Source of the DNA: a virus
Length of the DNA stretch: 28,984 nt
Direction: 5' to 3' (one strand)
Virus record (IMG/VR): IMGVR_UViG_3300025466_000135
Span: 1-28,984 of that record
Numbering within the stretch: position 1 is the first letter of the stretch; each line of letters begins with the position of its first letter. The position numbers and the translations under genes were made by a program. Under the pieces are notes generated by a model. It saw nothing but the letters and a program-made list of their open reading frames with translations. It was not told the origin of the DNA and did not search any database. Positions 5,677 through 23,324 of this stretch are shown piece by piece.

Positions 5677-5988
5677 ATGAAAGATTACGAAATTCAGCGA
5701 GTAGACAAAAGATTTAACGGGCACGGATATTTCAAATATATCGTCAGTCCAGTCTATCGCCGAGGTGATACCACATGGTTATATACCACAAGTCGCTTGC
5801 AATTTCAAGAATGGCGTGAATGGTGTCGTGCGACATTTGGACCAGCAATGGAACGTGAGTGGGCATGTGGCCTAATGTATCAAAATAAATTAGTGTCGCA
5901 GGCTTGGGCATGGGATACCGAACATGGCAATAAGCGTCTATATCTGCGTGGCGACGAAGAACTCACTGTTTTTGAGCTTAAATTCTAA
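5677..5988 (+). CDS. Conserved phage protein; paralogue of the 15478 gene
   Basis: 103 residues. Most of it aligns by eye with the protein from 15478-15795. Shared landmarks are FQEWREWCRATFGP versus FKEWRAWCWEVFGP, QAWAWDTEHGNKRLYLR versus GNWAWNTEFGGMRLYFR, and a closing FxLKF/W. Tryptophans and one Cys are conserved. This indicates an ancient duplication within the phage. The gene stands alone between two promoters, with its own near-leaderless promoter upstream and the helicase promoter starting just after its stop. Function unknown; size and aromatic content suggest a small binding protein. Confidence 0.75.
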   Translation: MKDYEIQRVDKRFNGHGYFKYIVSPVYRRGDTTWLYTTSRLQFQEWREWCRATFGPAMEREWACGLMYQNKLVSQAWAWDTEHGNKRLYLRGDEELTVFELKF

Positions 5989-5992
5989 GCGG

Positions 5993-6021
5993 TTGACCCA
6001 AAATTCTCAATAATGTATAAT
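5993..6021 (+). promoter_or_regulatory. sigma70-like promoter, predicted leaderless helicase transcript
   Basis: TTGACC at 5993-5998, a 17-bp spacer with AATTC and TATAAT at 6016-6021. Exactly six bases separate the -10 box from ATG 6028, placing the expected +1 on the start codon. The open frame extends up to ATG 6013, but that ATG overlaps the -10 box, so 6028 is the usable start. Confidence 0.75.
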
Positions 6022-6027
6022 ACTAGT

Positions 6028-8313
6028 ATGACTAAAAAATCTAACCCTATTGCAGAAACCAAAGTTCGCACTATCCTATATCTCTGGGAGGATAAACGTA
6101 GCCCAGGAGAACCAAAATTTGGTGACCATACTATTGCAGGTAGTCCAACTAAAGTTGAAATAGACAAAGATACCAAGGCCTATATTCGTAGTCAACTTAG
6201 TCGTCAAAAATATATTTACGATGCCGGCGATATTATTGTGCATTGGATCATTGACGCAACCGAATATGCTCAATCCGTAGGCAAAAATTATCCCCATGCT
6301 AAGTTAGATGATTATATTGCTAACGAAAAGACTGACCTTAAGAATTATAGAATACTAGCAGACGTTTATAAAATCTCAGCCGACGAACTTACTCGTAAAG
6401 TAAATGGTGTACTATATGGTGTAAGTAAAACTGGTACTTATGCTCCGCACAAGTTTCAACAAGAAGCAATTAATAAAGCAGTTGATTATTTCAACAATGG
6501 CGGTACTGATTATCTATTAGACGCTGTTATGCGTTTTGGTAAGAGTTTTACTAGTTATAAAATCTGCAAAGATATTGCCGCTAAACGTATTTTAGTTATT
6601 ACAGGTCGTCCTAAGATTAAAGACGGATGGAAGAATGATTTAGATCACGTAGACTTTGCAGGCTGGAATTTCATTGACAGCCAAAAAGAAAAGGATGTAG
6701 CATTTTACAATGCTGATGCATTGTTTACCACCGAAGAAGAACCTGTAGCTGAAGTTATCTTTGCTAGTTTTCAAGGTGGTAAACGTGCAGACAGCCGTAT
6801 TGCTAAAGTAATTGAGCAAGATATCGATGTAGTCATCATTGATGAAGCTCATGCGTACTTTAGCGCCGATGCTATTGATTTTATTAAAAAACTAAAAGCC
6901 AAACGTAAAATTTGGGCAAGCGGCACTCCTTTTAAAGCCTACGAAAGTGGCATGTTTGATGGAGAGACAGATACTTACCGTTTTACTCTATTAGATTTGT
7001 TACGTGAAAAAAAACGTGTAGAGGATTCTATTAAAGCAGGTGAATTTGTGTCTGACTTAGAAATGCGTTATACAGAATTTCCTAATGTACAATTTTTAGT
7101 AGCAGAATATCCGACGTTTAATAACGACGAATTATATAAAGAAGAAGGCCTTAATATGAAGGCTCTCACAAGTAGCAAAGATAATATTCCTAACTATCCA
7201 GACGAAGTCAATGGTCTATTAGACAGTTTGTTTAGAACCGACAGACGCAGTCCGTTTACCATGGGCGGTCGCGAGATTAAATATCCGGTTAATGCACAAC
7301 ATGTATGGATGGCTGTGCCTGCAGGCAAAGATGACACAACTAGCGAATCAGTTGCATCTGCTACTACCCTGGAAACTTCAATTAAAAATCATCCTTTGTA
7401 TAGCACAAAATATTCTCCACTGGCCATTAAAGGCAACAAGGATCAGGACGATGTTAATCGCCATATCACATTAGCAAAACAAAATAATCTTGGGTCTATT
7501 AATATCAGTTGTCGTAGCTTGAACACTGGCACTAAATTTCCTGATATTGATACTGTAGTATTTTTAACTGAAACTACAAGTGCCTCTGAGTTTTGGCAAA
7601 CGGGTGGTCGTGCATTACAACCTAAGCCAGGTAAAAAGAGTATTACTATTATTTGTTACAGTATTGAAATGGTTGTTAATATGGCCAACCGCATGGTTGA
7701 GTATAGCATCAAAGACACCAGTGATAAAAATCATAATGCTGTTATGACAGAATTTTTATCAATGATGCCAGTTTTTGTCAATGACGGCCCTCGTGTAAAA
7801 TCTTTAGATATTGAAGAAGTGTATCAACAACTTAGCAGTAGTGGAAGTGTTAAACGTAGTTTTAGCGATCGTGCTGTGTTAAGCAAAGACTTTGAAGACG
7901 TCGTATTAAACAATATAGAATTTTTCCGGGACATTCCCGACGTTGATAACGATGATCCCAGTTCACGTAAATTATTACATGCATCAGGAGTTAAGGGTAA
8001 AAATGCAACGCAAAAACGCACAGCGCCAACGACTGCAAAAGAAAAAGCTGAAATTGACGAAATTAAAATTAAGGTTCGTGAGTTCCTAACATATATCGGC
8101 GATGTCATGTCTGCTAGTCTTGCCTATGATCAAGCAGTAGTCGAATCATTGACTGACTTAGAGCATATTAACAAAGCCACAATTGATGGGGAATTAGGAA
8201 AAGGCACTAAAGATATTATTTTAGCGTTACTAAAATCGGGCGCACTCAACACATCTGTCTTAGACAGAAAAATTAGTGCTTATTATAATGTTAAACTTAA
8301 AACTGCAATTTAA
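6028..8313 (+). CDS. SF2 DEAD/DEAH-box helicase, restriction-enzyme type, with possible N-terminal nuclease-like domain
   Basis: 761 residues. Motifs: FQQEA (143-147), Walker A variant MRFGKS (168-173), DEAH in VVIIDEAH (272-275), motif III SGTPF (298-302) and motif VI QTGGRALQP (524-532), giving a complete two-lobe helicase core. The MRFGKS form is typical of helicases related to type III/ISP restriction subunits. Residues 11-100 form a separate domain (TILYLWEDKRSPGEPKFGDH, later TEYAQSVGKNYPHAKLDDYI). Its spacing resembles GIY-YIG/T5orf172-like nuclease domains, but this is weak. The C-terminal 150 residues are helical. The next ATG follows the stop directly, so helicase and methyltransferase are one transcription unit. 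ATP-dependent translocation is likely; whether it cuts DNA is open. Confidence 0.85.
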   Translation: MTKKSNPIAETKVRTILYLWEDKRSPGEPKFGDHTIAGSPTKVEIDKDTKAYIRSQLSRQKYIYDAGDIIVHWIIDATEYAQSVGKNYPHAKLDDYIANEKTDLKNYRILADVYKISADELTRKVNGVLYGVSKTGTYAPHKFQQEAINKAVDYFNNGGTDYLLDAVMRFGKSFTSYKICKDIAAKRILVITGRPKIKDGWKNDLDHVDFAGWNFIDSQKEKDVAFYNADALFTTEEEPVAEVIFASFQGGKRADSRIAKVIEQDIDVVIIDEAHAYFSADAIDFIKKLKAKRKIWASGTPFKAYESGMFDGETDTYRFTLLDLLREKKRVEDSIKAGEFVSDLEMRYTEFPNVQFLVAEYPTFNNDELYKEEGLNMKALTSSKDNIPNYPDEVNGLLDSLFRTDRRSPFTMGGREIKYPVNAQHVWMAVPAGKDDTTSESVASATTLETSIKNHPLYSTKYSPLAIKGNKDQDDVNRHITLAKQNNLGSINISCRSLNTGTKFPDIDTVVFLTETTSASEFWQTGGRALQPKPGKKSITIICYSIEMVVNMANRMVEYSIKDTSDKNHNAVMTEFLSMMPVFVNDGPRVKSLDIEEVYQQLSSSGSVKRSFSDRAVLSKDFEDVVLNNIEFFRDIPDVDNDDPSSRKLLHASGVKGKNATQKRTAPTTAKEKAEIDEIKIKVREFLTYIGDVMSASLAYDQAVVESLTDLEHINKATIDGELGKGTKDIILALLKSGALNTSVLDRKISAYYNVKLKTAI

Positions 8314-9621
8314 ATGTTTACTGCCTATATTAGACCCGACAAAGTTTACGATGTCTTACACGACATCAGGACTCCAAAATGGAAACTATCGGCCACTGGA
8401 GAGACTAGAACCAATTCTGCTCTCATTGATGAAATTTTAGCTACGATTCCAGTTGCTGAATGGAAAAGGGGAGGGCCATTTTTAGATCCTTGTTGCGGTA
8501 GAGGTACGTTCCTTTTAAAGGTTATTGACAAATTAGAGAAATACCATTCGCCTGAGAATATATTAAATATGATTAAGGGCATTGACATTGATAGCTATTG
8601 CGTGTATACTACTAAAGAAGTTATCTCTGCACGTTTAGGCGTTAAACCCGAAGAGTTAGATAATATTATCGTTCAGGATAACTTTATAACATGGGATTCA
8701 AAAGGTATGAAATTTAATATAGTGGGAAATCCTCCATTCCAAGAGGGTGGTAGAGATGACGAAGCAAATAAGTTATGGCCATTTTTTATAAAACGAGCCA
8801 GTGAGTTAGTCAAAGACAAAGGTTATGTAGCAATGGTTAGCCCAACTGGATGGATGCAACCCACTGCTGATATTGGTAAGGGAAATAGCAAAAATGCTGT
8901 TAGTATTTTCAATGACATATTTAAAGCAAATAATTTAGTTACTGCCAATATTAACAGTGATACCTTACAAAAAATGTACTTTGCCGGTGTTGGTAGTACT
9001 TTTAGTTATTTTACTTTTCAGAAGGCACCATATAAAGGAATAACCAACTTTATCACTCCCACAGGTACTATTCAAGTCGACATTCGTACAATTGACAGCT
9101 TACCCAAAGTAACAAGTAGTCTAAGTCTTAGTATTACTAAAAAAATGTCAGGTACACCGTTTAAATTTTATGATCAGAATCACGGGTTAAATGGCAAAGA
9201 AAATAGTGTTAAAGATTCTAACTATCAATATCGTGTATATCATACTAATAAAAAAGGTGGAACCTATTGGTATGGTTCTGTAAAATCTGCAGAAGCTAAT
9301 AAGCCCAAGGTTATTATTAGTTTGTCCGGAAAATATCTTGCAGTATATAATAACACTGACGGATTTAGTAATATGTGTATGGCACTTGTTTGTGATACTG
9401 ATGCACAGGCAACGCAAGCAGAAATTGTGTTAAACAGTAAGTTATATCGTTTTTGGGTAGAAATGCAAAAGTTTTCTGGATTTAATCCTAGAAAGTTAAT
9501 CTTAACTTTGCCAGCAGTTGATCTAAATCAACAATGGGACGATCAGTTATTGTATAAACATTTTAACTTAACCACAGATGAAATTGCTTATATTGAAGGA
9601 ATGTTTAGTGTTGCCGAATAA
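8314..9621 (+). CDS. DNA N6-adenine-type methyltransferase
   Basis: 435 residues. The SAM-binding motif DPCCGRG is at 58-64 (FLDPCCGRGTFLLKV), an acidic strand end IKGIDID near 88-93 and the catalytic NPPF at 139-142 (IVGNPPFQEGG). This is the gamma-type motif order (I then IV) of N6-adenine methyltransferases. The remaining 290 residues, including FSGFNPRKLIL near the end, would hold the target-recognition part. The start codon abuts the helicase stop with no gap, implying coupling. Such enzymes protect phage DNA from host restriction or act in modification systems. The specificity cannot be read from sequence. Its 3' end overlaps the next gene by 14 bp. Confidence 0.85.
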   Translation: MFTAYIRPDKVYDVLHDIRTPKWKLSATGETRTNSALIDEILATIPVAEWKRGGPFLDPCCGRGTFLLKVIDKLEKYHSPENILNMIKGIDIDSYCVYTTKEVISARLGVKPEELDNIIVQDNFITWDSKGMKFNIVGNPPFQEGGRDDEANKLWPFFIKRASELVKDKGYVAMVSPTGWMQPTADIGKGNSKNAVSIFNDIFKANNLVTANINSDTLQKMYFAGVGSTFSYFTFQKAPYKGITNFITPTGTIQVDIRTIDSLPKVTSSLSLSITKKMSGTPFKFYDQNHGLNGKENSVKDSNYQYRVYHTNKKGGTYWYGSVKSAEANKPKVIISLSGKYLAVYNNTDGFSNMCMALVCDTDAQATQAEIVLNSKLYRFWVEMQKFSGFNPRKLILTLPAVDLNQQWDDQLLYKHFNLTTDEIAYIEGMFSVAE

Positions 9622-10150
9622 AGAACAAGTTATATCGCATGCAAGGAACAGAGATTATATGAGCGGAGTTGAAAGAGATTCTGCTCGTATTAAGGCCACT
9701 GGCGAAGTTTTTACCCCAACAAAATTAGTACAAGCAATACTAGATAGTTTGCCACAGACTTTATTTACAGATCCATCAGAAACTTTTCTTGATCCTAGTT
9801 GTGGAGATGGTCAGTTTTTAAGTGAAATACTTATAAGAAAAATGGAAAACGGAATTAGCTTTGAAGATGCGTTATCGAGTATCTATGGAGTTGAACTGAT
9901 GGAAGATAATGCAGAAGAATGTCGCAAAAGATTACTTTGTGGACAAGAGCAATTAAGGCATATTGTAGAACGTAACATTGTATGGCACAATGGGCTGACA
10001 TATGATTATAGCTTTAATGGTACTAACTTTACCGAACAAGAACTATTAAACCAAACCATTGGTTTGCCGGTGAACACAGAAAAAAACAATAAAATTAAAA
10101 GGCTAAAAGAAACACTCACACCCGATTTATCTGCATTTGATTTAGAATAA
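9608..10150 (+). CDS. SAM-binding methyltransferase-like protein lacking the catalytic motif
   Basis: 180 residues from GTG 9608, chosen because AAGGA at 9596-9600 lies seven bases before it; the frame also allows ATG 9578 with no such site. TGEVFTPTKLVQAIL (31-45) and FLDPSCGDGQFLSEIL (60-75) are typical of N6-adenine methylases of restriction systems. The expected NPPY/F motif IV is absent: after HIVERNIVWHNGLTYDYSFNG the protein turns into a charged tail. It is far shorter than full methylases. It may bind SAM or DNA as a partner of the preceding methyltransferase or be a reduced descendant. The intact frame and good ribosome-binding site argue against simple decay. Confidence 0.75.
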   Translation: MLPNKEQVISHARNRDYMSGVERDSARIKATGEVFTPTKLVQAILDSLPQTLFTDPSETFLDPSCGDGQFLSEILIRKMENGISFEDALSSIYGVELMEDNAEECRKRLLCGQEQLRHIVERNIVWHNGLTYDYSFNGTNFTEQELLNQTIGLPVNTEKNNKIKRLKETLTPDLSAFDLE

Positions 10151-10151
10151 A

Positions 10152-11204
10152 ATGAGCTACTTAGACAAAATCAAAAAGAAATACGATATCACAGACTACA
10201 AGGAAAGCGGTGTAACTATACCCGAACTTCCTACTGATGGTATTGTATTAATTGTAGGTACGTCGGGTTCAGGTAAAAGTACTATCTTGCGTGGCCTGGG
10301 TGAACTACGTCAGCCTGTAGTAGATAACGCTCGCACTACAATAGAAAACTTTAGTACTCCGGAACGTGGCGAAGAACTCTTACTTGCCTGCGGACTTCGT
10401 AGTATTCCTACTTGGTTTCGATCACCCAATACACTAAGCAATGGTGAGTACCACCGTTTTGAAATGGCTCTTAGTTTAGATCAAGGGCTCAGCACAGTTG
10501 ACGAGTTTACGTCGGTAGTAGACCGCGATACTGCTAAAAGTCTAGCGTTAAGTATTCGCAAGTTCTATGACAAGCGAGGTACAACAGATCCGTTATACAT
10601 TGCAAGTTGCCACAGAGACATAGTAGAATGGTTAGATCCAGACTACGTATATGACACAGATCTCTGTGTCTTAGAAAATCGGAGGTCACTTCTTCGACTG
10701 GGGACAAGACCAGAACTCGCACTCACCATCAAAAGCTCAAGTGTCGACTATTGGAGATATTTCAGTAAGTATCACTATCTAGATACTGCTATTAGTAAAT
10801 CGGCGCACTACTATGTCTTACTCCTAGGTGATAAACCCATTGGTTTCCATGCCGCTATACATTCAACTAATAGAGATATTCATTCGTACTGGCGTGGCCA
10901 TCGTACTGTAATCCTACCCGAGTTTCAAGGCATGGGTATAGGTACAGCATTTAGTGATGCCGTTGCTAAAATTTATGTAGACAAAGGCCTGCGTTACTTT
11001 AGCAAGACAGCTCACCCTAGTTTTGGTGAACACCGCGAAAAATCAGACCTATGGCGCCCTACATCAATGAATAAGAAGAGTCGTGTTGGTAGTTACTTAA
11101 ACAAGGATGGTACTGCACGTGCGATGAAAGGGTATGGCGGCACAACTACTGTTCGCGATGCTTATAGGGTTTGTTACAGCCACGAATATATAGGTAAAAA
11201 GTAA
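10152..11204 (+). CDS. Fusion of ABC-type ATPase and GNAT acyltransferase (Mom-like class suspected)
   Basis: 350 residues. ATPase half: Walker A GTSGSGKST (36-44), signature TLSNGE (94-99), Walker B region STVDEFTSVVDR (114-125) and switch His in ASCHRDI (His154). It has no membrane segment, so it is not a transporter. GNAT half: WRYFSKYHYLD (201-211), then HRTVILPEFQGMGIGTAF with the acyl-CoA loop QGMGIG (259-264), and a conserved-looking TAHPSFGEHREKSDLWRP (286-303). The phage Mu Mom DNA-modification enzyme is a GNAT relative. Position behind two methyltransferase-type genes makes a DNA-directed acyl transfer an attractive inference, not a demonstrated one. It starts 1 bp after the previous stop and is followed by a strong terminator. 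Confidence 0.8.
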   Translation: MSYLDKIKKKYDITDYKESGVTIPELPTDGIVLIVGTSGSGKSTILRGLGELRQPVVDNARTTIENFSTPERGEELLLACGLRSIPTWFRSPNTLSNGEYHRFEMALSLDQGLSTVDEFTSVVDRDTAKSLALSIRKFYDKRGTTDPLYIASCHRDIVEWLDPDYVYDTDLCVLENRRSLLRLGTRPELALTIKSSSVDYWRYFSKYHYLDTAISKSAHYYVLLLGDKPIGFHAAIHSTNRDIHSYWRGHRTVILPEFQGMGIGTAFSDAVAKIYVDKGLRYFSKTAHPSFGEHREKSDLWRPTSMNKKSRVGSYLNKDGTARAMKGYGGTTTVRDAYRVCYSHEYIGKK

Positions 11205-11228: not shown

Positions 11229-11254
11229 AAAACCCCCGTTTTTAGGGGGTTTTT
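11229..11254 (+). terminator. Rho-independent terminator after the helicase/methyltransferase/ABC-GNAT block
   Basis: AAAACCCCC (11229-11237) pairs with GGGGGTTTT (11245-11253) around the loop GTTTTTA, and the T run continues to 11254. It lies 24 bp after the ABC-GNAT stop and 19 bp before the next promoter, cleanly separating two transcription units. Confidence 0.85.
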
Positions 11255-11272
11255 CACGGGGTTTATTTCGAG

Positions 11273-11301
11273 TTGACCCATAATTCGTTCTCAGCTATAA
11301 T
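11273..11301 (+). promoter_or_regulatory. sigma70-like promoter
   Basis: TTGACC at 11273-11278, a 17-bp spacer with AATTC and TATAAT at 11296-11301. The following GTATGTATAGTG is shared with the promoter at 14385 and nearly with 15816. Expected +1 near 11308; the leader carries AAGGAG at 11320-11325. Confidence 0.85.
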
Positions 11302-13466: not shown

Positions 13467-14102
13467 TCACAAAAGGGACTCAGGTCCCTTTTGTTTTGGG
13501 TATGTTTTCCCTTTACGTGGAGATACTCTGCCCTTTAATGTTGCAGATCGTTTAGCGTTTGCTTCTTCTGTTTGTGTTCTACCAGTAAGGGCTTCACTGA
13601 TCTTTTTACTAGTTTCTGCTGAACGATTATTGTGTATTTCTAACATCTTTAATCTCTGTTCTTCGCTCATCGGTTTGCCTTTGTTAGGTGCAGGCTGTCC
13701 TTTTCGAGTATTGGCCATTTTTGCTACACTTGGATTAGTGTCTTTAGTTAAACCTTTATTCCACGCAGGTCTTCCTTTGGGAAGCTCTAATCCTTTGTTC
13801 CAGGGTGCTTGGCCAACTGTGCTAAACTTACCATCGCTGTTGTGTTGATTATAGCTCATAGGATCGTTTTTAGCATCTAATGATAATAAGAACTGTGTTT
13901 CCAATTCTAACATATCCGTTGGTTCACCAATAGCAAGTATTTCTCTTTGCCATTCCCCACGGTTTTCTGTGATCATGGGTTTAATGGTTTTACTTGAACA
14001 GATATATCCATCGTCGGGATTACACCCTGTTTTGGTTCTGCTACCAATATACCAACGTCCTGTAGGAATATGTGTCCAACGATATACAAATGCTTTAGTC
14101 AT
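13467..14102 (-). CDS. GIY-YIG homing endonuclease with NUMOD3 repeats
   Basis: 211 residues. GIY-YIG half: VYRW at 6-9 and WYIGSR at 17-22 stand for the two signature elements, with a candidate catalytic Glu in MLELETQFL. DNA-binding half: several NUMOD3-type segments (APWNKGLELPKGRPAWNKGL, GQPAPNKGKPMSEEQ, EALTGRTQTEE, SPRKGKTYP). This is a free-standing mobile endonuclease of the Seg/I-TevI kind. It lies against all its neighbours' direction in the gap between the MoxR gene and 14191. A GAGGA ribosome-binding site precedes the ATG on the reverse strand. Its final codons (QKGPESLL) are encoded by the MoxR terminator hairpin, so the frame ends inside pre-existing regulatory DNA. Confidence 0.88.
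   Translation of the reverse strand: MTKAFVYRWTHIPTGRWYIGSRTKTGCNPDDGYICSSKTIKPMITENRGEWQREILAIGEPTDMLELETQFLLSLDAKNDPMSYNQHNSDGKFSTVGQAPWNKGLELPKGRPAWNKGLTKDTNPSVAKMANTRKGQPAPNKGKPMSEEQRLKMLEIHNNRSAETSKKISEALTGRTQTEEANAKRSATLKGRVSPRKGKTYPKQKGPESLL
13470..13497 (+). terminator. Strong terminator after the MoxR gene, overlapping the end of the homing endonuclease
   Basis: A perfect 10-bp stem, CAAAAGGGAC (13470-13479) with GTCCCTTTTG (13484-13493), loop TCAG, followed by four T residues. It lies 27 bp after the MoxR stop. Because of the A tract on the other side it could also act on the reverse strand, where it codes for the last residues of the homing endonuclease. Confidence 0.85.
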
Positions 14103-15140: not shown

Positions 15141-15481
15141 GATACTTGGTTATTCTTACTGTTCTACTGTTGCAAGGTTGTGCTGGTGCTATGCTAGTGG
15201 CAGGTGTTGCAGGTATGGCCACAGTAGAAGTAACTGGTAAAAGTGCCAGCGATCATGTTATTAGCGCAGTAAATGGACAAGATTGTAAGATGTCTAGAAG
15301 TATGAAGGGCAAGGATGTATGCCAAGATCAACCCGATGCAGAACCAGATGTTACTGTTGCGGCAAAGCCGCCGCCTATACCGGAAATTCCTACAGAAAAT
15401 CCGCAACCAAAAAGGGTTGTGGTAGTTAGTAATAGCGTAGATGATATGGAACGTGTTATGGCCCAAAGGCGGTCACAATGA
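15137..15481 (+). CDS. Phage-encoded lipoprotein
   Basis: 114 residues. A short signal peptide (MRYLVILTVLLLQGC) ends in a lipobox LLQGC, so Cys15 would be lipidated by Lgt and the chain exported. The mature part starts with an alanine/glycine/valine stretch, followed by SASDHVISAVNGQDCKMSR with a second conserved-looking Cys pair (DC and VC). A proline-rich tail (AAKPPPIPEIP) is typical of periplasm-spanning linkers. I recall DHVxSA...DC lipoproteins from marine bacteria and their phages. Superinfection exclusion by receptor blocking, as for T5 Llp, is a plausible role but not shown. A lipobox supports a Gram-negative host. Confidence 0.75.
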   Translation: MRYLVILTVLLLQGCAGAMLVAGVAGMATVEVTGKSASDHVISAVNGQDCKMSRSMKGKDVCQDQPDAEPDVTVAAKPPPIPEIPTENPQPKRVVVVSNSVDDMERVMAQRRSQ

Positions 15482-15795
15482 AAGTAACGAAGTTAGATCG
15501 GCGTCATAACTGTTATCTAATAATGAAGTATCACGTTGAGATTAATTTTAAACACCTCTGGGGCAATGAAAACCGAATTGAACTTTTTAAGGAATGGCGG
15601 GCATGGTGCTGGGAAGTGTTTGGTCCAGGTACAGAGATTAAATGGATTGTTATTCACCCTGTAGATGCTGGCCCAAATGGCCAATGCCAGATGGTATCCA
15701 AGGGCAATTGGGCCTGGAACACAGAGTTTGGAGGCATGCGTTTATACTTCCGAGATGACGAAACCTTAAGCGCATTCATGCTAAAATGGGGTTAA
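15478..15795 (+). CDS. Conserved phage protein; paralogue of the 5677 gene
   Basis: 105 residues with the same landmark order as the 5677 protein: FKEWRAWCWEVFGPGTEIKW, a variable loop, GNWAWNTEFGGMRLYFRDDE and a closing FMLKWG. Four tryptophans around the shared Cys are kept. The N-terminus here is longer and basic. The two copies lie almost 10 kb apart and belong to different transcription units, which suggests an old duplication with separate roles or timing. ATGA overlap with the lipoprotein gene. Function unknown. Confidence 0.72.
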   Translation: MKVTKLDRRHNCYLIMKYHVEINFKHLWGNENRIELFKEWRAWCWEVFGPGTEIKWIVIHPVDAGPNGQCQMVSKGNWAWNTEFGGMRLYFRDDETLSAFMLKWG

Positions 15796-20099: not shown

Positions 20100-20593
20100 T
20101 AAATGCCATATTTGCCGTTGACTACAACGGCGGTATGGGGTTTAACGGTACATTGCCGTGGCCCCATAACCCTGAAGATTTAGCCAACTTTAAATCAACC
20201 ACAGAACAACAGGTCGTAGTAATGGGCCGACGTACTTGGGACGATCCTAAAATGCCTAAACCGTTACCTAATCGTATTACCTATGTAGCAACTAATAGAC
20301 CTATTACACAGGCTGCTACCTTTAGTGGAGATGTACAGGAAAATCTATTACGTTTAGAACAACAACATCCAGATAGACAAATCTTTGTTATTGGCGGTGT
20401 TGCACTACTTGAGTCTGCACGTCCTTTACTAGATAGAGTATATGTAACGCACTTTAAAGGTTCGTATCGAGCAGACACACGTATGCACGTCAAAGAATTC
20501 CTGACAGGATTCCGCCCAGTTAGAGGAACTACTAGTAAAGATTTTCAATCAATTTTTACAGTTTATGAGTCAATCTTTAAACGCAAAACCTAA
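20096..20593 (+). CDS. folA: Dihydrofolate reductase
   Basis: 165 residues, normal for the family. The N-terminal AIFAVDYNGGMGFNGTLPWP and NPEDLANFK carry the substrate-binding loop and the acidic residue (Asp28) that protonates dihydrofolate. VVVMGRRTWDD provides the first NADPH phosphate contact, and FVIGGVALLES the second glycine pair. It regenerates tetrahydrofolate, which ThyA (21688) consumes, so the two supply dTMP for phage DNA synthesis. In T4 the equivalent gene is frd, next to td; here two SGNH-like genes intervene. Starts on an ATGA overlap; the next start overlaps its 3' end by 29 bp. Confidence 0.95.
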   Translation: MINAIFAVDYNGGMGFNGTLPWPHNPEDLANFKSTTEQQVVVMGRRTWDDPKMPKPLPNRITYVATNRPITQAATFSGDVQENLLRLEQQHPDRQIFVIGGVALLESARPLLDRVYVTHFKGSYRADTRMHVKEFLTGFRPVRGTTSKDFQSIFTVYESIFKRKT

Positions 20594-20921
20594 TATCTTT
20601 ATCTGCGGACTAAGTTGGACAAGGGGCGAATATGCTAGCGGTAGTCCAACTATACAACACAAAGGCCTCGAACAATATTTTATTGATGCTGGCTATAACG
20701 TTTTTAACGTTTCAAGATCAAATAGTTTTCATAATCAAGTCATTGATGCACTAACTGTATCCATGTCTGAACATTATCGGCTAGGCGACTTAGTATTCTT
20801 TCAACAAACAAAAACCCGTGATATTCTTTTTAACTCAGTTTTCCATCCTGACGGCAATCATCCCAACAGGAACGGTCATAAAATATTATTTGACCACATT
20901 GTAAAGAAACTTAATTTATGA
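20565..20921 (+). CDS. Shortened SGNH-like protein, internal-deletion copy of the next gene
   Basis: 118 residues. Residues 11-83 align with residues 6-82 of the following protein (FICGLSWTRGEY versus YITGGSWARGEW; IQHKGLEQYFIDAG versus VQHKGIEQYFLDDS). After RDIL the sequence jumps directly to SVFHPDGNHPNRNGHKILFDHI, equivalent to the last 30 residues of the neighbour. About 143 residues in between are missing, with the frame kept. The block I Ser (GLSW) and DxxH (DGNH) remain, but the regions that carry oxyanion-hole residues are gone. It may be a regulatory or dimerising remnant or simply decaying. ATGA overlap with the full-length copy. Confidence 0.75.
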   Translation: MSQSLNAKPNIFICGLSWTRGEYASGSPTIQHKGLEQYFIDAGYNVFNVSRSNSFHNQVIDALTVSMSEHYRLGDLVFFQQTKTRDILFNSVFHPDGNHPNRNGHKILFDHIVKKLNL

Positions 20922-21691
20922 CTAAACCCAAAATTTATATAACCGGCGGTAGTTGGGCCAGGGGAGAATGGAGTGACGTTAAACCCATTGTACAACACAA
21001 GGGCATTGAACAATATTTTTTAGACGATAGCTTTCAGGTTGTTAATAAATCTCGTCCACGTACATATCACTTGACCGCAGTAGATATGATTTCTAATTTA
21101 TTACATAATGAATTTACCCCAGGAGATTATGTATTTTTTATTATAACAGATCCACTGTTAGATATTTTACAACCAGAATTAGTTTCTCTAAAATATAAAA
21201 AATCATTAACAAGTGTACACACATTGCCTAACTTTACTAAAACCATCAAAGAAGCTGGCGGATTTAATTTGTTAGTTAAAAAAGTACAGCATCAAATATA
21301 CAATAGAATAAACAATTTAGGCAAACTCTTAGATACCAAAATACATTGTATTGGCGGTTCGTTTAACCTCAATACTGATATAATAAGTGAATACCAGAAC
21401 TTAAATCCCATTGTCCCAAGTTGGGTTAAACTATTAGTTGGGCATTATGATGAATATAAAGATAAAGTCAATGATCCAGAATTTGGTATTATTAATACCT
21501 GGGGCATTGACTATATAGACTTAACACAGTATAATAAAGACTTTGCAGAACAAGTAAAACAAGAATTTGATAACTTTTCTAAAAATCGAGTTATTTTAAC
21601 AGAAACTATTTTTCACCCCGACGGCCATCATCCTAACCGAGAAGGCCATCGAATCCTATACGACTATATTCGAAAAGAATTAAACATATGA
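20918..21691 (+). CDS. SGNH-hydrolase-like protein, full-length copy
   Basis: 257 residues. Block I is GGSW at about 10-13 (YITGGSWARGEW). FIITDPLLDIL, KIHCIGGSFNL and the NPIVPSW region fill the central fold, and the C-terminus FHPDGHHPNREGHRILYDYI carries an intact DxxH (DGHH) and the following HPNxxGH signature. All catalytic positions of an SGNH esterase are thus plausible. The substrate is unknown. Neighbouring sugar-nucleotide genes downstream suggest glycan acyl groups, but the folate genes on both sides give no such hint. ATGA overlaps with both neighbours. Confidence 0.7.
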   Translation: MTKPKIYITGGSWARGEWSDVKPIVQHKGIEQYFLDDSFQVVNKSRPRTYHLTAVDMISNLLHNEFTPGDYVFFIITDPLLDILQPELVSLKYKKSLTSVHTLPNFTKTIKEAGGFNLLVKKVQHQIYNRINNLGKLLDTKIHCIGGSFNLNTDIISEYQNLNPIVPSWVKLLVGHYDEYKDKVNDPEFGIINTWGIDYIDLTQYNKDFAEQVKQEFDNFSKNRVILTETIFHPDGHHPNREGHRILYDYIRKELNI

Positions 21692-22599
21692 AACAATACC
21701 TAGACGCACTACAATACGTATTAGACAACGGACAAGAAGTCAGTGACCGCACAGGTGTAGGTACACTTAGTTGCTTTGGTATGCAACAACGCTACAATTT
21801 ATCTACTTCATTCCCGGCAGTAACAACTAAAAAGTTAGCTTGGAAGGCCTGTGTAGGCGAGCTACTATGGATGATTGAAGGATCTGGCAGTGAACGTCGT
21901 CTAGCAGAACTTACACACGGAACAGCAGATGGTAAAGTAACTATCTGGACTCCTAACGCACTAGCACCATACTGGAAGCCTAAGGCCAAGTACGAAGGCG
22001 ACCTAGGTCGTGTCTACGGAGTACAGTGGCGTCACTGGCGTACTCCTATAGAACACAAACAAGAAACATACAAAGACGAGTTTGGTACGTGGTACAATCG
22101 TCAGGGTAGTGTACACTTTGAAGAAGTTGATCAATTAACAAACCTTATCAATGGTATTAAGCAGGACCCGCATGGACGTCGACACATACTATCTGCATGG
22201 AACCCTGGAGAATTAAACCAGATGGCCCTGCCACCATGCCACGTTTTTGCACAGTTTTATGTTAGTAAAGACAATCGTCTGAGTTGTCAGATGTACCAAA
22301 GAAGTTGTGACATGTTTTTGGGTGTACCCTTTAACATCGCAAGCTATAGCTTGCTGACTGCGTTGGTAGCGCAAGTGTGCAATTTAGATGTAGGGGAGTT
22401 TGTTCATGTACTCGGTGATGCCCACATATACTTAAACCATGTAGAGCAGGTTAAAGAGCAATTAGAACGTGAACCATTACCTGCCCCGCAACTTCTATTA
22501 AACAAAGACATCACAGACATTACCAAGTTCACCATGGCAGATATTACCTTAGAGGGTTATACTAGTCATGCATCAATTAAAGCAGACATGGCAGTATGA
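21688..22599 (+). CDS. thyA: Thymidylate synthase (ThyA type)
   Basis: 303 residues. RTGVGTLSCFG near the N-terminus, LGRVYGVQWR (106-115), DPHGRRHILSAWNP with the phosphate-binding Arg pair (164-165), and the nucleophile Cys184 in ALPPCHVFAQF are all in family order. CQMYQRSCDMFLGVPFNIASY and HVLGDAHIYLNH complete the folate/dUMP site. It methylates dUMP to dTMP using methylene-tetrahydrofolate, with DHFR (20096) recycling the product. As I recall, marine cyanophages more often carry ThyX, so ThyA is of note. ATGA overlaps on both sides; no intron is evident. Confidence 0.95.
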   Translation: MKQYLDALQYVLDNGQEVSDRTGVGTLSCFGMQQRYNLSTSFPAVTTKKLAWKACVGELLWMIEGSGSERRLAELTHGTADGKVTIWTPNALAPYWKPKAKYEGDLGRVYGVQWRHWRTPIEHKQETYKDEFGTWYNRQGSVHFEEVDQLTNLINGIKQDPHGRRHILSAWNPGELNQMALPPCHVFAQFYVSKDNRLSCQMYQRSCDMFLGVPFNIASYSLLTALVAQVCNLDVGEFVHVLGDAHIYLNHVEQVKEQLEREPLPAPQLLLNKDITDITKFTMADITLEGYTSHASIKADMAV

Positions 22600-23324
22600 C
22601 ATATAGTCAAGTACTGGCCTTTGGGGATAGTACAACTGCCGGTTGCGAACTAATACCGCAATCGTTTGATTGGGCTGAAACTAAAAAATTAAGTTTTCCC
22701 AATCAATTAGCCGATAAGCTCAATATACCTTGTGTTAATTTAGCATGGCCTGGGGGTAGCAACGATCGTAGCTTACGCTTGTTGCCAGAAGCACTACTAA
22801 AATATCCTAATAGTCTTGTATTGTTTACCTATACAACATTTGATCGTGCAGAAATGTTTACCACAGATAGTAGTATGCCACAGGTAATTGAGGAAAGTTA
22901 CACAGGACTTGGTATTAATTGGGATTCTGTTACCACCGGCGAATCACATCAACGTGTAAATACTTTATACCTCAAAGAGTTTTACACAGATACACACAAA
23001 TACAATAGATATAAATCGTATAATATGTTGCTGTCAGTAGACCTGCTATGTCAGAGATACGCTAGTAACTACCTACAAATATTCTTATACGACAGACTAA
23101 TTGATCCGCCCGATTACCAACCAGAAGTATTTAATGCTGTGGATAAAGATCACATATACCAATTTGAGTTCGCTAATGTTAAAGCAACATGGAAAACAAA
23201 TAATCAAAATTTTGGAAGTTTGCGCCATTGGGCAAAACAAAAGGGTTACCAATTTTGCCCAGGTGGACATATTGGACAAGAAGCACATGACAATTTCGCT
23301 ATAGAGTTATATAATAAAGTATGA
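22596..23324 (+). CDS. SGNH/GDSL-hydrolase-like protein (paralogue of the 857 gene)
   Basis: 242 residues. GDST at 10-13 (LAFGDSTTAGCELIP) is a standard block I. PGGSNDRSLRLLPEALLKYPN corresponds to SGSSNARILRTTYEYLENNRP of the 857 protein, and the following TYTTFDRAEMF to WATWEREEW. The C-terminal CPGGHIGQEAHDNF aligns with the DxxH block but has Pro in the Asp position, exactly as in the 857 protein. Activity would have to rely on a Ser-His dyad or be lost. The gene sits between thyA and an epimerase with ATGA junctions, linking it to the sugar-nucleotide genes. Confidence 0.7.
   Translation: MTYSQVLAFGDSTTAGCELIPQSFDWAETKKLSFPNQLADKLNIPCVNLAWPGGSNDRSLRLLPEALLKYPNSLVLFTYTTFDRAEMFTTDSSMPQVIEESYTGLGINWDSVTTGESHQRVNTLYLKEFYTDTHKYNRYKSYNMLLSVDLLCQRYASNYLQIFLYDRLIDPPDYQPEVFNAVDKDHIYQFEFANVKATWKTNNQNFGSLRHWAKQKGYQFCPGGHIGQEAHDNFAIELYNKV

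Follow-up and report, generated by a model that had tools for sequence, protein, structure and literature searches.

A helicase-methyltransferase unit beside an ABC-GNAT fusion in a freshwater jumbo phage: probable independent DNA-targeting units with a two-part methyltransferase and clamp-type tails

A block of four genes was analyzed in IMG/VR virus record IMGVR_UViG_3300025466_000135 (the window, 28,984 bases). The window belongs to the genome of a freshwater giant (jumbo) phage, and the block sits at a variable site of that genome. It encodes a helicase (HEL), a DNA methyltransferase (MT1), an S-adenosylmethionine (SAM)-binding subunit (MT2) and an ABC ATPase fused to a GNAT domain (ABC-GNAT). 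We consider it fairly probable that two independent DNA-targeting units met here at a jumbo-phage hotspot: HEL-MT1-MT2, resembling a restriction-modification (RM) system with MT2 as the SAM half, and ABC-GNAT, an acyltransferase. This reading was built from sequence comparison, through the anatomy of the block, its recurrence, the conservation and decay of motifs, an enrichment of C-terminal tails, the agreement of these tails with those of DNA polymerases, and a TAGT glycosyltransferase found in the place of ABC-GNAT. The features concerned are as follows.

5993-6021, plus strand: sigma-70-like promoter, TTGACC-N17-TATAAT (11/12 consensus matches, also read directly)
6013-8313, plus strand: HEL, helicase (alternative start 6028)
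8314-9621, plus strand: MT1, methyltransferase (0 bp gap after HEL)
9578-10150, plus strand: MT2, SAM-binding subunit (likely start GTG 9608)
10152-11204, plus strand: ABC-GNAT fusion (1 bp gap after MT2)
near 11229-11256, plus strand: intrinsic terminator AAAACCCCCGTTTTTAGGGGGTTTTTC (direct reading; the terminator scan reported the minus strand only)
5677-5988, plus strand: U103, 103 amino acids, ending LTVFELKF, upstream of the block

The gene positions and the spacing (0 bp, a short overlap and 1 bp) given in an earlier note on this DNA were borne out; the MT1/MT2 overlap was 44 nt with the start at 9578 or 14 nt with GTG 9608. The promoter at 5993 and the terminator at 11229 were also present. 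Three further sites in the region reached the same score as the promoter, so the match alone was weak evidence. The -10 hexamer stopped 6 nt ahead of the ATG at 6028, and the transcript would therefore be almost leaderless. The note's account of the proteins (an ATP-driven translocase with an extra N-terminal domain, a methyltransferase with NPPF, a SAM-binding partner without NPPF/Y, and an ABC ATPase-GNAT fusion) agreed with the motifs and domain matches given below, and its suggestion of a restriction-like set was supported.

The HEL-MT1-MT2 order and gene overlap were found again in dozens of other phage contigs, indicating that the block is more than chance. A profile search of IMG/VR with MT2 gave 171 matches, 80 of which were kept as loci; a search with a single MT2 found 97 phage records, and only six matches came from bacterial and archaeal genomes, mostly contigs of metagenome-assembled genomes. 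MT2 immediately followed an NPPY methyltransferase or a fusion of helicase and methyltransferase, the MT1 and MT2 genes overlapped in 56/61 pairs, and many loci had a helicase upstream of the methyltransferase genes. NatCom, an unrelated gut phage, carried these three genes in the opposite order. At one locus (L128:8368-8916) a QueD/PTPS-like gene, recognized by reading, adjoined the module, a hint of deazaguanine chemistry in that phage family.

The earlier note had considered, as one of two possibilities, a DNA-modification machine of all four genes that methylates and then makes a bulkier acyl-type change. In such a machine MT1 and MT2 would methylate or prepare adenine and ABC-GNAT would then acylate the same sites. 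The four genes do form one transcription unit in the window, the order recurred in L047 and, with a fused helicase-MT1, in L059, and the ABC-GNAT of phage PX29 is two genes away from a methyltransferase that includes an MT2 domain. However, ABC-GNAT adjoined only 3/80 MT2 loci, so a joint methylation-acylation machine was not supported. MT1-MT2 pairs occurred without a neighboring ABC-GNAT in cyanophages, gut phages and other phages, and most of the usable ABC-GNAT loci had no MT2, showing that homologues of the four families usually stand apart. We regard the single machine as quite improbable.

ABC-GNAT was found mostly with ParB-like or other cassettes. Seventy-seven relatives were retrieved from IMG/VR, and among the 57 usable loci 24 had ParB-like genes, 14 had methyltransferases of several unrelated types, and the others had mostly nuclease- or HNH-like proteins, several of these labels being given by motif only. 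In a large subgroup the left (U95, U140) and right (MoxR-like) neighbors were conserved and the intervening genes were exchanged; the interval was nearly empty in L130 (about 100 bp) and elsewhere held ParB-like modules without ABC-GNAT. The ABC-GNAT site is an insertion hotspot with ParB-like, nuclease or methyltransferase cassettes. Because Pfam gave nothing significant for the jumbo-phage cassette proteins labeled ParB-like or nuclease-like, these labels rest on motifs recognized by eye and on the ParB_N matches of isolated phages. Six smaller isolated phages (LE4, EastWest, Pmp13, Jace, MismyG and SL25) had a ParB_N-type gene, called by Pfam, annotation or sequence, just upstream of ABC-GNAT. 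The idea of ABC-GNAT as a core gene was dropped after a search of 14 large family records failed to find it; that search lacked a positive control of its own, although the query does recover its own genome. A UvdE-like TIM-barrel protein (label by sequence reading) was encoded directly upstream of ABC-GNAT in L051 (489-1493) and in L054. A conserved protein of about 185 amino acids with an FEHLIPA motif (the c6 family, e.g., L003:6659-7216) accompanied ParB-like proteins and is perhaps a divergent HNH protein (Pfam E 0.1 only).

MT1 matched Eco57I in Pfam (E 7.4e-8) and MTase_II in PADLOC (1.4e-15). It is of the gamma-type N6-adenine-like kind, with motif X, motif I (DPCCGRGTFL), motif IV (NPPF at residue 139) and a target recognition region, and it thus holds both the SAM and the catalytic motif of a DNA methyltransferase. 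MT2 has motif X (ATGEVFTP) and motif I (FLDPSCGDGQFL); it matched phrog_4376 (E 2e-21) and, with its N-part, only positions 22-98 of the 311 of Pfam N6_Mtase (E 2e-5). No motif IV (NPPY/F) was found in the window MT2, and an NPPY-like string occurred in 1/71 MT2 open reading frames (ORFs). MT2 aligned to MT1 residues 12-119, ending at NPPY (E 9e-19). Motif I was intact in 59/60 distinct MT2s compared with 17/51 distinct MT1s. The whole N-half was absent in 6/51 MT1s; those of P-SSM2 (gp036) and S-CAM7 (gp076) begin at NPPY. In Aeh1, PX29 and L035 a single protein contained both halves, arranged in permuted order. MT2 appears to be a SAM-binding half that arose by duplication and then often came to act in trans; it would supply SAM in trans because the SAM motif of MT1 itself has decayed in most relatives.

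Alternatively, MT2 could be a regulatory or DNA-recognition pseudo-methyltransferase beside a complete MT1, its SAM site only stabilizing or regulating. MT1 keeps motif I in the window, L047, L181 and NatCom, as this would predict. However, MT1 has lost the motif in two thirds of the relatives and its N-half in six while MT2 has kept its own, and the fused, permuted proteins also speak against this alternative. We judge a pseudo-methyltransferase unlikely. Three consecutive MT1-type methyltransferases (386, 387 and 381 amino acids) followed by a single MT2 were observed in L181 (2175-6528), and two MT1-type methyltransferases in L217 and L223; several MT1s with different targets may share one MT2. 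In phage KpV477 (L262:2532-3677) an MT1-type methyltransferase was fused, by reading, to an N-terminal GIY-YIG-like domain and was followed by a separate target-recognition-like ORF and then MT2.

HEL matched Pfam ResIII (E 1.6e-11), which makes it a superfamily 2 (SF2) helicase, and from residue 132 it aligned to the T5orf172-helicase of NatCom (E 1e-31). The extra N-terminal domain (residues 15-131 approximately) was distantly T5orf172/GIY-YIG-like: its profile aligned end to end with a T5orf172-type set at E 0.0014, compared with 0.2-0.45 for column shuffles, and a Pfam search with it gave no match. It is probably, although not proven to be, a nuclease domain of the GIY-YIG family, and HEL would then have nuclease activity. 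Relatives carried nuclease domains recognized by Pfam, namely T5orf172 in the NatCom helicase (2.3e-9), MUG113 in L226 (1.8e-4) and Mrr_cat_2 in L231 (2.4e-6); the helicases of L199 and L220 had a T5orf172/MUG113-like N-domain under the Pfam cut-off. An alternative layout, with a separate helicase and a separate Mrr-type nuclease, was seen in L231 and, by sequence, in Bellamy and ACG-2014f. A search with HEL returned near-identical loci only.

ABC-GNAT combined a GNAT domain (E 1.8e-5, from about residue 190) with a P-loop/ABC ATPase and was covered end to end by phrog_11143 (E 2e-77). Its ATPase motifs are GTSGSGKS (Walker A), LSNGE (signature), DEFTS (Walker B and the catalytic Glu), VVDR (D-loop) and CH (H-loop); residues of all of these were invariant in 25 homologues, as were GNAT residues, so both halves look active. 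An AlphaFold2 (AF2) model was obtained with a mean local confidence (pLDDT) of 82.9 and a predicted template modeling score (pTM) of 0.80. Foldseek assigned an ABC fold to the N-half; the GNAT domain was not seen among the Foldseek matches, which ABC folds dominated. The fusion and its homology to a protein of Tenacibaculum phage pT24 (35.5% identity over 92%) place it in the pT24-type family of predicted DNA modifiers, for which acyl modification has already been predicted (PMC7824862).

In Aeromonas phage Aeh1, the position of ABC-GNAT was taken by a TAGT glycosyltransferase (PF20691, E 3.6e-44) accompanied by a 66-residue protein, and the flanking genes were 73-87% identical between PX29 and Aeh1. 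Ah1, phiAS5 and avDM12-TAAL had the same TAGT arrangement by annotation or gene layout. This replacement supports a DNA-modifying role for ABC-GNAT. Of the earlier note's phage DNA-modification machine, one part thus stood, in that ABC-GNAT is probably a DNA modifier, presumably by acyl transfer; the four genes as one machine did not. ABC-GNAT might instead acetylate a small molecule or a protein of the host, RNA polymerase for example. GNATs with roles of this kind are known in phages (Rac, PMC7552054; PMC7824862), and membership in the GNAT family does not by itself tell the substrate. However, the TAGT enzyme in its place at one locus, the clamp-type tails of the PX29 and P12024S proteins, the ParB_N-type neighbors in six small phages and the RM-like neighbors in jumbo phages point to DNA, and we find a substrate other than DNA rather unlikely. 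The kinship with Mu Mom put forward for the GNAT domain was not supported as family membership: the ABC-GNAT alignment against Mom in hhalign was not significant (probability 0.1, E 0.77; GNAT part alone, E 0.24), and only an HY..S-like stretch aligned. The test was weak, because IMG/VR yielded only close Mom relatives and a single Mom sequence was used.

Common C-terminal tails, such as FDVLFEEVA and NPAVFEIA, were found in unrelated cassette proteins (enrichment in the cassette set p 7e-7, the pattern having been picked post hoc). In 12 phages of this set the DNA polymerases end in TTFDDLFSFE, NTFQSLFEF and similar. In a second test, patterns fixed beforehand from the cassette set were applied to MT2s fetched later; [LIVMA]F[DE] within the last 8 amino acids occurred in 22/58 MT2s compared with 18/634 other ORFs (p 1e-15). 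The type of MT2 tail tracked the type of polymerase between phage groups: LESFFG/LDSFFS/LELFFS in cyanophage polymerases and GLEAFF/GLEMFM/GVEQFF in MT2s, TFDDLFSFE and RFESLFSFD in the jumbo group (from different phages of the group), and SLLDMFDF and NLDFFFE in KpV477. T4 gp43 ends in SLDFLFG and gp55 in SLDFLYEAND, and such hydrophobic-acidic ends bind the sliding clamp gp45 (PMC2988020). The tail of the PX29 ABC-GNAT (gp085), GLDFMFGI, is of this type, and the P12024S ABC-GNAT ends in NQISLF. The tails of the relatives would thus dock on the clamp as the polymerase's does, which suggests that phage DNA is modified while it is copied. The tails were first met in proteins encoded directly upstream of ABC-GNAT, and docking of cassette proteins onto ABC-GNAT itself would explain that position. 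However, tails were common in MT2s of loci without an adjacent ABC-GNAT, they agreed with the polymerase tail of the same phage group, and the PX29 ABC-GNAT carries one itself; docking on ABC-GNAT is very unlikely. Through such docking, the sliding clamp could be a moving platform that phage DNA-modifying enzymes use in general. In a widespread family of two-part methyltransferases, in jumbo phages and cyanophages, a clamp-tethered MT2 would supply SAM as a separate half-protein, and ABC-GNATs, interchangeable with DNA glycosyltransferases and likewise tethered, would acylate DNA at the replication fork; we offer this extension tentatively. The 66-residue protein of Aeh1 (p092, L261:2255-2455), between the TAGT gene and the methyltransferase unit, ends in GLASLFDI and is a possible clamp adaptor for the glycosyltransferase. 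U103 has a paralogue in the window at 15478-15795 without the C-terminal tail, so whether it belongs to the unit as a clamp-tailed member is uncertain.

Several observations weigh against the reading of two units with a SAM half and clamp-type tails. Motif I is intact in the window MT1, which could function by itself, so that MT2 may here be supplementary and not required, and the AF2 model of the permuted L035 methyltransferase was unusable (pLDDT 43). The GIY-YIG relation of the HEL N-domain is weak at the E-value given. The first tail pattern was picked once the cassette tails had been seen, and three MT2 loci of the second test were already known. The window MT2 ends in LSAFDLE, a weak match to the clamp type; about 40% of MT2s had no [LIM]F in the last 8 residues, and the tail was often absent in MT2s beside a fused helicase-MT1, though the polymerases of those phages have LF tails. 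ABC-GNATs of the window's own family had no clamp tail. A search for clamp genes with PF02916 and PF09116 found none, but it was uninformative because the controls were silent as well.

With these reservations, we propose that the SF2 helicase, through its probable GIY-YIG-family nuclease domain, would attack unmodified DNA, and that MT1 would provide catalysis and target recognition of an adenine methyltransferase. MT2 would be its second SAM-binding half, usually bearing, in the family, a C-terminal peptide directed at the sliding clamp of the phage, and this tail would keep the methyltransferase on phage DNA that has just been copied. ABC-GNAT, elsewhere paired with ParB-type proteins, would act as an ATP-driven acyltransferase adding a bulkier group to DNA. 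The units would serve for protection or be directed against the DNA of rivals or of the host.

METTL3-METTL14 and the split C5 enzymes are two-Rossmann or split methyltransferases with catalytic and non-catalytic Rossmann partners; in MT1-MT2, by contrast, the conserved SAM site sits in the partner without the catalytic motif. Translocase RM systems (type III/ISP-like) and Alw26I-type methyltransferases (TIGR02987) share with HEL-MT1-MT2 an SF2 helicase and an N6-type methyltransferase in one operon, together with a nuclease-like domain, which is a probable one in HEL; the window unit differs in being phage-encoded and in its extra SAM-binding half-protein, with a clamp-type tail in the family. 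The window ABC-GNAT is homologous to the predicted phage ABC ATPase-GNAT DNA acyl-modification system (Iyer/Aravind; PMC7824862; pT24) and shares its ATPase and GNAT motifs. However, the window has a helicase-MT1-MT2 module where relatives have a ParB-like partner, and neither the TAGT replacement nor clamp-type tails were met in the papers searched. A precedent is the T4 alpha-glucosyltransferase, which binds gp45, although clamp binding did not account for the share of alpha-glucosylation (PMC13216743). It is alike as a DNA-modifying enzyme held by a phage sliding clamp, docking being predicted here, and differs in chemistry and fold from MT2, a methyltransferase subunit that binds SAM and has its peptide at the terminus. 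Mu Mom belongs to the same GNAT superfamily and is alike in acting on DNA if the prediction for ABC-GNAT holds, but it lacks the ABC domain and showed no significant sequence relation. What is new here is a methyltransferase made of two parts, one of them a conserved SAM half, together with the tails of clamp type; no description of these two points was found in the open-access literature searched, which does not prove novelty.

Elsewhere in the window, a second TTGACC-N17-TATAAT promoter lay past the block (11273-11301), its hexamers being those of 5993-6021, and identical hexamers before and after the block possibly mark a phage-specific promoter type. A GIY-YIG/NUMOD3 homing endonuclease was encoded on the minus strand (13467-14102), adjoining a MoxR-like ATPase gene. 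SGNH-hydrolase-like paralogues were recognized by reading at 857-1621, 20565-21691 and 22596-23324.

If the proposed reading is true, it would account for how large phages modify their DNA at copying speed and would give a function to phrog_4376 and phrog_11143, families of unknown function, and to P-SSM2 gp036/gp037. It would also describe a methyltransferase that has its conserved SAM site in the protein lacking the catalytic motif, and the DNA of PX29 and Aeh1 would offer a concrete comparison for finding an undescribed base modification.

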